From Halonotius aquaticus (lineage in GTDB: Archaea; Halobacteriota; Halobacteria; Halobacteriales; Haloferacaceae): 64,000 bases of DNA. The DNA lies in assembly GCF_003605575.1 (NCBI RefSeq), contig NZ_QKNY01000013.1, positions 62,001 to 126,000 of the forward strand, read 5' to 3'. Shown in pieces: positions 300 through 15,221 of this stretch. Below the pieces are notes generated by a model. That model searched no databases, was not told the origin of the DNA, and saw only the letters and a program-made list of their open reading frames with translations. Position 1 is the stretch's first letter, and every line of letters begins with the position of its first letter. The position numbers and the translations under genes are program-made.

Positions 300-4798
<4,499 letters not shown>

Positions 4799-4799
<1 letters not shown>

Positions 4800-7324
4800 T
4801 GAGCACCGATCTGCCTGACGATCCTGATGTCGACGCCGCCAGAATCGAGACCGCCCGGATCGAAGATGAGATGGAGCAATCCTACATCGATTATGCGATG
4901 TCGGTCATCGCCGGGCGTGCACTGCCGGACGTTCGTGACGGTCTCAAACCCGTCCACCGCCGCATCCTGTATGCGATGCACGAAGCCGGTGTCTCTGCGG
5001 GCTCGGCCCACCGCAAGAGCTCCTCCATCGTCGGTGAGACGATGGGTGATTTCCATCCCCACGGCGACAGTGCGATCTACGACACCCTCGCCCGGATGGC
5101 CCAAGATTTCTCGATGCGGTACCCACTTGTCGACGGGCAAGGCAACTTCGGCTCTGTCGACGGCGACCCGCCAGCGGCGATGCGCTATACGGAGGCCCGC
5201 ATGGCCCCCATCGCCGAGGAGTTGCTGGCCGACATCGACAAGGACACCGTCGATTTCAGCGCAAACTACGATGACCGCCTGCAGGAACCTGATGTGTTGC
5301 CGTCAGCGTTCCCGAACCTCCTCGTCAACGGCTCCTCTGGGATCGCCGTCGGGATGTCGACGAACATCCCGCCGCACAACCTCGGCGAGGTCATCGATGC
5401 GACCGTCCATCTGATTAACAACCCTGAGGCGACCGTTGAGGATCTGATGGATCACGTCAAGGGGCCGGATTTCCCAACTGGTGCCAACATCGTCGGCCGG
5501 GGTGGCGTCCACTCGGCGTACAAGACCGGCCGCGGTCGCGTCCGCGTTCGCGCTGAGTTCGAGGTCGACGAGGAGGAAGGCCGGATTGTCATCACTGAAC
5601 TGCCCTTCCAAGAGAACAAAGCCCGCCTCGTCGAGCGCATTGCAGACGACGTGAACGAGGGCAAACTGGAGGGGATCCGTGATCTCCGCGATGAGTCCGA
5701 TCGCGACGGGATTCGCGTCGTCATCGATCTCAAACGCGACGCGATGGTCGATGTGGTCAAGAATCAACTGCTCGAAAGCCATCTCGAATCAACCTTCGGC
5801 GTCATCAACCTCGCCTTGGTCGATGGTGCGCCGCAGGTACTCGATCTGCGGGAGACGATTCAGCACTACCTTGATCACCGCCGTGAGGTCGTCCGTCGGC
5901 GCTCCCAGTACGAACTCGACGAGGCCGAGGATCGCGCCCACATTCTTGAGGGCCGGCTGACCGCCCTCAACAACGTCGATGACGTCGTCGAGACGATCCA
6001 AGATGCGGCTGACCGCGACGCCGCGAAGGCCGCCCTACGGGAGCAGTTCGACTTCTCGGAGGATCAGGTCGCCCACATCGTTTCGATGCAGCTCGGGTCG
6101 CTGACATCGATGGAGGCCCAAGCGATCAAAGACGAGTACGAAGAGGTGCAGGCCCGCATCGAGCGGCTCGAAGAGATCCTCACCAACGAGAGCGAACTGC
6201 TCGGTGTCATCGAGGAGGAACTGCTCGAAATCAAGGACGAATACGACGACGAGCGACGCACCTCGTTCATCGAAGATACCGACACCGTCGCCCACGAGGA
6301 TCTCATCCCCGAGGAGGACATCGTCGTCGCCATGTCCGAAGACGACTACATCAAGCGGATGCCGCTGTCGACGTTCTCCGCACAGAACCGCGGCGGCAAG
6401 GGGATCATCGGCACCGATCTCAAGGAGGACGATGCGGTCTCATCGGTGTTTGTCGCCAACACCCACGACTATCTGCTCTGTTTCACCAACTATGGGCAGA
6501 TCTACAAGCTCCGTGGGTTCCAGATCCCCGAGATGAGCCGTACCGCCCGCGGGAAATCTGCGGTCAACATCCTCGATCTCGACGACGGCGAGGAGCTTAC
6601 GGCGGTCGTCAACACCGACGACATCGCCGACGAGTCCTTCGATGGCCAGCGGTATCTGACGATGGTGACCCGCGACGGCTACATCAAACGCACCGGCGTC
6701 GATGACTTCCAGAACATCCACACCTCGGGGATCCGCGCGATCCGCCTAGAGGACGGCGACGAACTCGTCGATGTCGAGGTTACCGACGGCGACCGGACGC
6801 TTGTGGTGACGACGACCGGCGGGATGTCGATCCGCTTCGATGAAGACGATGTCCGCGCGATGGGCCGGAGTGCCCGCGGTGTCCGTGGGATCGACCTCCA
6901 GGACGACGATACGGTCGCTGGTGTCGCCGCCGTCGACGTCGATCGTCACAGCTGGGTACTAACGGTCACCGAAAACGGCTACGGCAAGCGATCCGATATC
7001 GACGAGTACCGCGTCCAATCCCGCAACGGGAAGGGTCTAATCGACATCAAAACTGCGGGTCGCAACGGCCCGGTCTGTGCGATGGAGACTGTCGGCCCCG
7101 GCGACCACCTGGTCGTGATGAGCAAGTCGGGCCAGATCATGCGCACGCCTGTCGAGGACATCTCAACGGTCGGCCGCAACACGATGGGCGTGATCGTGAT
7201 GGATCTCGTCGAGGCCGACCGCGTCGCCTGTCTCGATGTGATCCCCCGTGAGATGGTTACCGACGAATCGGAGGCCGACGTTGATCTCGCGACCGATCCC
7301 GAAGCCGCCCCGAGCGACGACTGA
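4799..7324 (+). CDS. gyrA: DNA gyrase subunit A
   Basis: 841-residue DNA-cleaving and rejoining subunit of gyrase. The winged-helix/tower core carries the catalytic tyrosine in [11 protein letters not shown] (about residue 131). The C-terminal six-bladed DNA-wrapping domain begins with a GyrA-box-like QNRGGKGI at about residue 529, followed by repeated blades such as [18 protein letters not shown] and GRNTMGVIV. The N-terminal [20 protein letters not shown] is canonical. The ATG at 4799 overlaps the gyrB stop by one base. The C-terminal tail is acidic, as expected for a haloarchaeon. The next gene starts 17 nt downstream on the same strand, so it may be co-transcribed. Confidence 0.97.
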
Positions 7325-7341: not shown

Positions 7342-8187
7342 GTGAAATCGTTTCCACCGACGCCACCGGTTGCAGACGCCCCGGACGGGTTGCTGTCGGG
7401 ACATCTCTGGCTGCTGGAGTTGATCGACGGCCGACCGCTGCGGTTTCAACTCCAGGACTCAGGGCTGCTCCGTGTTGGCGATGGAGAGGCGGTCTATGAC
7501 GACCCAGAGACGATTCCGCTGCCGTTCCGTCAGGCGGTTGCCCACATTCGTGACTCCCTCGACCGCGACGCACTCAGAGCCGCCGTTGATAACGTCGAAG
7601 CGGTCACTTTCTTCGGTGTAGCAACTACCCACGAGTCGGTACCATACGATTTCGAGTCGATGCCGCCGTTTCTCAGCACCGACGTGTGGGCGGCCGACCG
7701 CGAGACGTTTCGCCCGCCGGACGCTGCCGATGGCATCTTCCGACGACTCGGGCTTGTACCCGTCAACACCTTCGAACGAGAAGTCAACACACGGGATTTC
7801 TCCCCCGATACATACGAGCTGCCGACATCGGCGTGGTATGACGGCCCGGCCGCGGGTGTTGTGATCCGGAACAAACAGGGCCAGCGCGGCCAACTATCAA
7901 ACCCAGCCGTGGCTGCCTCGACACCGGCAGGAGACTCGACACAATCGAAGCCAGCCCAATCGATCGATGAGCTGGTCGATACGTACGCAACACCGGCGTC
8001 TATCGAGTCCATCGCTACGTCGATGCGGTCGGATGAGCGATCAGTTGCCGTCGACACCGTTACCGATCGGCTGTGTGGGGTTGTCGGCCGACGGCATCCT
8101 GACGCGTTTTTGGGTGCCGACGGCCTCGATCAGCCCGCGTTCCGCTCGGCGATCGCCGAACAGGTGCAACGACACCTCCATCGGTGA
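7342..8187 (+). CDS. RNA-ligase-like protein, apparently catalytically degenerate
   Basis: 281 residues from a GTG start, 17 nt after gyrA. The layout resembles haloarchaeal proteins annotated as RNA ligase (Rnl2/nucleotidyltransferase-like), in which an N-terminal KxDG holds the adenylated lysine, FFGE is motif III and EGVVxR is motif IV. At the matching places this protein has LELIDG (residues 25-30, Leu for Lys), FFGVAT (Val for Glu) and AAGVVIRN (Ala for Glu), and the motif V region reads RGQLSNP without the expected Lys. The fold is therefore inferred and the catalytic residues look lost. It may be a pseudoenzyme with a binding role. The family link is from recall and needs a profile search. 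Confidence 0.6.
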   Translation: MKSFPPTPPVADAPDGLLSGHLWLLELIDGRPLRFQLQDSGLLRVGDGEAVYDDPETIPLPFRQAVAHIRDSLDRDALRAAVDNVEAVTFFGVATTHESVPYDFESMPPFLSTDVWAADRETFRPPDAADGIFRRLGLVPVNTFEREVNTRDFSPDTYELPTSAWYDGPAAGVVIRNKQGQRGQLSNPAVAASTPAGDSTQSKPAQSIDELVDTYATPASIESIATSMRSDERSVAVDTVTDRLCGVVGRRHPDAFLGADGLDQPAFRSAIAEQVQRHLHR

Positions 8188-8336: not shown

Positions 8337-8861
8337 ATGTCATCAATCGAACTTACGCCAAGTCAGAAAACCATTCTGACCGCGCTGACCAACCTCCACC
8401 GCGAAGCCGAAGATGCGATCAAAGGCGAGGCCATCGCCGACGAAGTCGACCGCAATCCCGGGACGATCCGCAACCAAATGCAGAGCCTCAAGGCCCTCCA
8501 ACTTGTCGAGGGGGTTCCCGGCCCGAAGGGCGGTTATAAGCCGACTGCCGACGCCTACGAGGCTCTCGACGTTGACCAAATGGACGAGCCAGCCTCGGTA
8601 CCCCTCCAACACAACAGCGAGGTCGTCGAGAATGCCACCGTCGAAAGTATCGACCTCTCCAGCGTTCATCATCCGGAACTCTGCCGAGCGGAGATCCACC
8701 TCCAAGGCTCGATCCGTGACTTCCATGAGGGCGACTCGGTGACCGTCGGTCCCACCCCGCTGTCGAAGCTCAAAATCACGGGCACGCTTGATGCCAAAGA
8801 CGACACTGACAGTATTCTGATCCTCGAAATCGACGAGATGGTCGCCCCGGTCGACAACTAA
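8337..8861 (+). CDS. Winged-helix transcriptional regulator with C-terminal sensor-like domain
   Basis: 174 residues from the ATG at 8337. The N-terminal about 75 residues form a helix-turn-helix resembling Rrf2/TrmB-type DNA-binding domains, including GEAIADEVDRNPGTIRNQM and a glycine-rich wing (GVPGPKGGYKPT). The C-terminal half (about residues 85-174, with VHHPELCRAEIHLQG and VTVGPTPLSKL) looks like a separate effector or oligomerisation domain. An in-frame ATG at 8310 would add nine residues. A TATA-like AAATTTATC near 8270 could serve either start. I chose 8337 because MSSIELTPSQK matches my recollection of haloarchaeal homologues. The regulated genes are unknown. Confidence 0.7.
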   Translation: MSSIELTPSQKTILTALTNLHREAEDAIKGEAIADEVDRNPGTIRNQMQSLKALQLVEGVPGPKGGYKPTADAYEALDVDQMDEPASVPLQHNSEVVENATVESIDLSSVHHPELCRAEIHLQGSIRDFHEGDSVTVGPTPLSKLKITGTLDAKDDTDSILILEIDEMVAPVDN

Positions 8862-14462: not shown

Positions 14463-15221
14463 ATGAAGCCGAATCGCGTCGATTTTATCGTCGATATGAC
14501 GTTCGGGCTGTTGATCTCGCTGGCCGTCGTCTTGCTTGTCGTCGTCGGCACCCAAACGGGGGTCGCATTCGGACTCGGGGTGCTCTTGTCCTACACCGTC
14601 CACGTCGTCTGGAAGATGTCGCGGTTCGATCCCGACTGGATGACACAGGAGGTCGCCGAAGCCGTCGAGAAAACCGTTGAGGAGACCGTCGACAAAGAGG
14701 TCGGCGAGGCCGTCGAGAAGACCGTTGGCGAAACGGTCGAGCAGGAAGTCGGCGACACCGTCGAGAAAACTGTCGAGGAGACAGTCGACAAGGAGGTCGC
14801 TGAAACCGTCGAACAGACTGTGGGCGATACGGTTGAAAAAGAGGTCGGCGATACCGTCGAGGAGACGGTTGAGGCAACTGTCGAGGAGACGGTCGGCAAA
14901 ACTGTCGACGACGGCGTCACCGAAACCGTCGAAGAAACCGTCGAGGAGACGGTCGGCGACGAGGTCGCCAAAACCGTCGAAGCCACGGTTGGTGATGAGG
15001 TTGAGAAAACGGTCGAAGCGACCGTTGGTGAGGAAGTCGCCAAACGGGTTGAGGAGACGGTCGAAGCGGCCGTCGAAGAGACGGTCAGCGAGGAGATGTC
15101 AGCGGCAACTGAGAAGTTGGAAGCAAAAACTGAGGCGATCGAGGCGCAACTTGATGCGGAAGCCGACGATGGTAGCGCCGATGACAATGATGACGGCGAC
15201 GATACGGACGACGAGAAGTAG
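14463..15221 (+). CDS. Membrane-anchored protein with long Val/Thr/Glu tetrapeptide repeat
   Basis: 252 residues. Two hydrophobic segments (about 13-30 and 34-51) anchor the N-terminus. From about residue 61 to 215 the protein consists of a degenerate four-residue periodicity with Val at every fourth position (units such as VEKT, VEET, VDKE, VGET), mirrored by a 12-bp periodicity in the DNA. A short helical stretch with EKLEAKTEAIEAQLDAE and an Asp-rich tail ends it. A GGAG at 14453-14456 precedes the ATG. Coiled-coil tools might call the tail helical, but the spacing is 4.0 rather than 3.5 residues. Function unknown; a long extended spacer or scaffold is possible. Confidence 0.8.
   Translation: MKPNRVDFIVDMTFGLLISLAVVLLVVVGTQTGVAFGLGVLLSYTVHVVWKMSRFDPDWMTQEVAEAVEKTVEETVDKEVGEAVEKTVGETVEQEVGDTVEKTVEETVDKEVAETVEQTVGDTVEKEVGDTVEETVEATVEETVGKTVDDGVTETVEETVEETVGDEVAKTVEATVGDEVEKTVEATVGEEVAKRVEETVEAAVEETVSEEMSAATEKLEAKTEAIEAQLDAEADDGSADDNDDGDDTDDEK

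Follow-up and report, generated by a model that had tools for sequence, protein, structure and literature searches.

The gene and its surroundings

The window analysed here is a stretch of 64,000 nucleotides from Halonotius aquaticus. On its forward strand, a putative pseudo RNA ligase gene occupies positions 7342..8187 (281 amino acids, stop codon included). The reading frame is intact and runs from a GTG start at 7342 to a stop at 8185-8187. Directly upstream on the same strand, separated by a gap of 17 nt, is gyrA (4799..7324), which is preceded by gyrB (2751..4799, forward strand). The gyrB assignment drew on a Pfam scan of relatives, and its coordinates are those of the open reading frame as listed; the true start may lie further in. 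The gene order at the locus is top6B (reverse strand), gyrB, gyrA and then the pseudo RNA ligase gene. A gene for a winged-helix (HrcA-type) protein is found at 8340, 152 nt beyond the last of these.

Some relatives in Halorubrum and Halonotius have GyrB proteins of 1150-1209 amino acids, with an intein that carries a LAGLIDADG domain (sampled loci L071:5520-9149 and L088:3-3458). The GyrB of the window (2751-4799) has no intein insert. Elsewhere in the window, at 14463-15221 on the forward strand, an open reading frame of 252 amino acids encodes an N-terminal hydrophobic stretch followed by a long repeat run like VEETVEKTVGETVE.

The fold of an RNA ligase

Searched alone, the 281-residue protein matched no Pfam family, PF09414 (Rnl2-like ATP-dependent RNA ligases) included, even at an E value of 10. 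It matched no NCBIfam family either, and hence falls below the cut-off of TIGR01209 (Rnl3). Its ligase-fold identity comes from its orthologues and its predicted structure. All 31 scanned orthologues with K/E/E motifs matched PF09414 (best 2e-21), and so did 8 of the 39 fully broken family members. The intact set could be aligned with the Halonotius protein unambiguously and over the full length (hhalign E 4e-116, 44% identity). The protein thus has the fold of PF09414 and full-length orthology to members above the Pfam cut-off, and differs from them in scoring below it, with motifs I, Ia, III, IIIa, IV and V degenerate. PF09414 was the family that the earlier note on this DNA had named for comparison. 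Our literature searches turned up nothing on this haloarchaeal ligase family.

The AlphaFold2 model had a pLDDT of 90.5 with an alignment including five viral relatives, and of only 59 with 20 close relatives before these were added. At E ≤ 0.001 the model had 37 fold matches in the PDB. All are RNA ligases, apart from two chains from a single entry that was submitted as a putative DNA ligase. The top matches were RNA ligases (E 3.7e-7), and the best was the archaeal Rnl3 (Pab1020 family, TIGR01209, PDB 2vug). The others included a P. pacificus protein, T4 Rnl1, T4 Rnl2, T. brucei REL1, N. gruberi Rnl and a fungal tRNA ligase. Over whole chains the TM scores were near 0.5 and the rmsd was large, as expected if the domain arrangement differs; with N. 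gruberi Rnl, about 200 columns were superposed at 3.7 Å. Based on the model and these matches, a nucleotidyltransferase-fold domain covers about residues 1-190 (7342..7911, forward strand). The model also has a C-terminal all-helical domain at residues 208-281 (7963..8184, forward strand), which is aligned throughout with the intact orthologues. Sequence searches of the PDB with profiles of the intact set or the dead set found nothing, and a mixed profile of both found PAB1020 only (E 0.43). The protein is thus of the RNA-ligase (nucleotidyltransferase) fold, as the earlier note had proposed.

Loss of the catalytic motifs

Intact members of the family have EK(V/I)DG, FFGEA, AEGVV and RAKL at the aligned motif places. 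The Halonotius protein has replacements at all of them (all on the forward strand). Motif I reads LELIDG (residues 25-30, 7414..7431), with L27 (7420-7422) in place of the lysine of EKxDG and with D29 and G30 kept. Motif III is FFGVAT (residues 90-95, 7609..7626), with V93 (7618-7620) for glutamate. Motif IV is AAGVVIR (residues 170-176, 7849..7869), with A171 (7852-7854) for glutamate, and motif V is RGQL (residues 182-185, 7885..7896), with Q184 (7891-7893) for lysine. Two more changes were found: the motif Ia arginine (R48 in intact forms) is a glycine, G48 (7483..7485), and the aromatic residue of motif IIIa (F113 in intact forms) is T113 (7678-7680) within FLSTDVW (7669..7689). In RNA ligases, the motif Ia arginine serves in end joining and the motif IIIa aromatic stacks on the adenine. 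An orthologue from Haloterrigena turkmenica (WP_012945014, annotated 'RNA ligase family protein') is 45% identical and intact, and carries K, E, E and K where the Halonotius protein has none.

The motif I lysine (K27) was present in 34/34 intact orthologues, 4/4 viral relatives and 0/50 fully broken forms. Corresponding counts were 32/34, 4/4 and 16/50 for R48, 32/34, 4/4 and 8/50 for the motif IIIa aromatic, and 28/34, 4/4 and 8/50 for the motif V lysine. The positions conserved in viral and intact cellular forms yet kept in less than half of the broken ones were exactly K27, R48, E93, F113 and E171, each of which belongs to a nucleotidyltransferase motif. As 'broken' was defined by K, E and E of motifs I, III and IV, the independent part of this result is R48 and F113.

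The protein contains only three lysines, K2, K178 and K203. We considered K178 as a displaced nucleophile and rejected it: it is likewise invariant in intact orthologues that still carry the normal nucleophile. The loss of all catalytic motifs read earlier from the single sequence was borne out. With other residues in place of the nucleophile, the glutamates of motifs III and IV, the lysine of motif V and the aromatic of motif IIIa, the protein can very probably neither self-adenylate nor seal ends. Binding of a nucleotide, one of the roles that the earlier note had suggested, also seems unlikely from these replacements, because the motif IIIa aromatic and the motif Ia arginine are lost too.

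Distribution of the family

A whole-genome search found the family in 34/60 relatives and in 198/392 sampled genomes of the order Halobacteriales; the Halonotius relatives searched include H. roseus (NZ_SESI01000001). Active-looking versions exist, with many homologues carrying K/E/E. The 100 sampled loci were drawn from a ranking by similarity to the Halonotius protein, and therefore their ratio of intact to broken members is no census. Dead members on plasmids of Haloferax, Haloarcula and Natronomonas are annotated 'hypothetical protein'. Annotation thus overlooks the family's dead half.

Where the family occurs, one copy per genome is the rule, with few exceptions (80 genomes examined). The genome of Halonotius aquaticus has no match to PF09414 or TIGR01209, and RtcB is present in it. 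A heteromer with an intact copy is thereby ruled out for this genome. Hence the dead protein does not serve as accessory to a co-resident intact orthologue. Replacement by Rnl3, a separate family, was also rejected as a cause of loss. The presence of Rnl3 does not track the intact or dead state: by hand count, it occurs in 9/31 genomes with an intact form and in 9/35 with a dead form.

Among the sampled loci, as analysed with a crude gene caller, no neighbouring gene was conserved family-wide, and none thereby indicated a pathway. Local neighbours include the genes for ribosomal protein S15, RIO1 kinase and a YjeF-type NAD(P)H-hydrate repair protein. In several genomes, the gene of an intact or partly broken member follows a RIO1 kinase gene by 2 nt or directly precedes that of ribosomal protein S15 (L137, L148; L119, L120, L122, L130). 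In a few genomes, a second, longer RNA-ligase-like protein (about 358 amino acids, weak PF09414 match) is encoded directly after or near the intact ligase (L141:6849 and L152:6861-7937, both on the forward strand, and L157); in L152 the two genes overlap by 4 nt. A plasmid member of Haloferax lucentense (L191:4051-4701, 'hypothetical protein') adjoins a gene of the ribonuclease HI family.

Recurrent loss of catalysis

We built a tree of 103 rows, from which the motif columns were left out, and rooted it on four intact viral proteins. It requires 12 changes between intact and broken states (bootstrap range 10-13). This number is an estimate, because resolution is poor among the deep branches and fast-evolving rows could be wrongly placed. 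At least five changes are forced by strongly supported branches alone. Forcing the 50 fully broken rows together was rejected (AU p = 0.0025), which rules out one ancient dead paralogue or a single dead clade. Both states also occur within the genome groups f1, f4, f7, f12 and f17. Parsimony does not separate loss from gain; we read the changes as losses because the outgroup is intact and regaining the same residues is implausible. Loss is recurrent across haloarchaeal families and not unique to Halonotius. It had been asked whether the missing residues follow the genus; they are indeed missing in Halonotius, and the losses are not confined to that lineage.

Intermediates survive, with the states KE.,.E., K.E and K.. 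at the motif I lysine, motif III glutamate and motif IV glutamate. In six members the motif IV glutamate is the only one of the three lost, and in seven the motif III glutamate is the only one kept; R48 and F113 are mostly retained in both sets. The order of residue loss in the family looks ordered, judging from these intermediate sequences.

Selection on the dead forms

Pairwise dN/dS (Nei-Gojobori, NG86) was 0.14-0.21 in Halonotius, 0.14-0.40 in all broken pairs and 0.11-0.22 in intact pairs. It was far below 1 in every pair tested, and in many dead lineages it was about twice that of the intact ones. In most lineages the dead forms are thus under looser constraint than the intact ones. The dead forms remain full length. 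Of the matches listed, which span many genera and deep branches, nearly all have an open frame; one has an internal TGA. Because the dead forms are full length with dN/dS of 0.14-0.40, they do not represent simple decay. The suggestion that the Halonotius frame is maintained was thus upheld: catalytic residues are lost and purifying selection is kept, as in a pseudoenzyme.

Of the positions conserved among the intact forms, 29 are at least 90% conserved in the dead forms as well. Moreover, both intact and dead cellular forms retain W23, G41, P59, R250 and K178 at 94-100%, and the viral enzymes lack these residues. These cellular-only conserved positions point to a cellular function that would be independent of catalysis.

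Alternative explanations

In all five Halonotius genomes, the gene lies within about 20 nt after gyrA. At about 16 Halorubrum loci, it closely precedes gyrB-gyrA on the same strand, in most cases by no more than about 100 nt. The protein might then work with DNA gyrase or regulate the gyrBA operon, for instance by binding gyrBA mRNA or a gyrase subunit, and two different arrangements beside the same gyrase operon are unlikely to arise by chance. However, the other approximately 100 sampled loci lie away from gyrase, among them those of the group that is closely sister to the gyrase-linked proteins of Halorubrum (L059, L062, L067). In the tree, the two gyrase-linked groups are not each other's closest relatives, and proximity to a strongly expressed operon can supply expression with no functional coupling. 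A general gyrase association of the family is ruled out, being limited to two lineages, and we regard a gyrase role as unlikely. The link to gyrase drawn in the earlier note therefore stands for Halonotius and part of Halorubrum and not for the other sampled members; where it stands, it may be functional or may reflect a shared history of the neighbourhood.

A viral connection was also considered. Haloarchaeal tailed viruses carry intact relatives, HGTV-1 gp217 (KC292026, AGM11514; PHROG 548; 28.6%) and a protein on an IMG/VR contig (38%), which are the nearest non-cellular relatives that we found. HGTV-1 gp217 is homologous to the Halonotius protein over its whole length, including the helical C-terminus. 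Unlike the Halonotius protein, the viral forms have a full set of catalytic residues, and about nine extra residues are inserted after their first strands. This homology suggests exchange of the ligase gene between virus and host. A captured viral ligase might even serve as a decoy, which would bind nicked RNA or pair with viral ligases and so block the repair of RNA cut during infection; a patchy distribution and fairly fast evolution would suit such a role. PADLOC gave no match and no defence island was recognised, however. The members lie in ordinary chromosomal loci, and intact cellular forms, which a decoy model does not need, are common. We consider a decoy quite improbable. Still less credit is due to the idea that the ligase is no longer needed and that its frame stays open by chance or inertia. 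The raised dN/dS in many dead lineages (up to 0.40) and the absence of the gene from half of the genomes would agree with decay, but not the frames that are open in nearly all matches listed, the dN/dS well below 1 in every tested pair (0.14-0.21 in Halonotius) or the 29 shared conserved positions. It is just as hard to believe that the protein is still an enzyme, using an alternative lysine or a different chemistry such as the sealing of pre-adenylated ends. D29 and G30 of motif I are retained and K178 is nearly invariant close after motif IV. Yet K178 is equally invariant in intact forms with a normal nucleophile and absent in the viral enzymes, and the protein lacks the glutamates of motifs III and IV, the lysine of motif V and the aromatic residue of motif IIIa.

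A probable retained non-catalytic function

The explanation that we favour is that the Halonotius protein descends from a PF09414-type ATP-dependent RNA ligase and is a retained pseudoenzyme. It most likely does a non-catalytic and probably RNA-binding job that is common to its intact relatives. The haloarchaeal family would already have had a second task beside sealing, namely binding an RNA or an RNA-containing partner via surfaces common to intact and dead forms. This task would have been kept where sealing became dispensable, and catalysis would have been lost in place, repeatedly and without gene duplication. Purifying selection maintains both the nucleotidyltransferase fold and the helical C-terminal domain of the dead protein. 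We infer that most likely there is such a common task, that RNA binding is part of it and that the protein binds no nucleotide. The second task would itself be dispensable, given that only about half of the genomes carry the gene. In addition, the raised dN/dS in many dead lineages implies relaxed constraint, and the gene may be slowly disappearing from some lineages.

More generally, we lean slightly towards the view that the single-copy haloarchaeal RNA ligase has a conserved, ligation-free second function, and that catalysis was dropped in place at least five and probably about 12 times independently. The exact number is uncertain because deep tree support is weak. In pseudoenzymes in general, as described in the review PMC10211241, the fold is retained and catalytic residues are lost. 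By our own comparison, the present case differs in that catalysis was lost in place in single-copy orthologues and not in a duplicate.

Most work on pseudoenzymes concerns duplicates that coexist with an active copy. In this family it is the sole genomic copy that seems to have lost catalysis repeatedly and stayed under selection, and graded intermediates survive. The family may therefore be regarded as a natural experiment on the roles of an RNA ligase other than sealing. If our explanation is true, the dead forms would be natural separation-of-function variants of RNA ligase.
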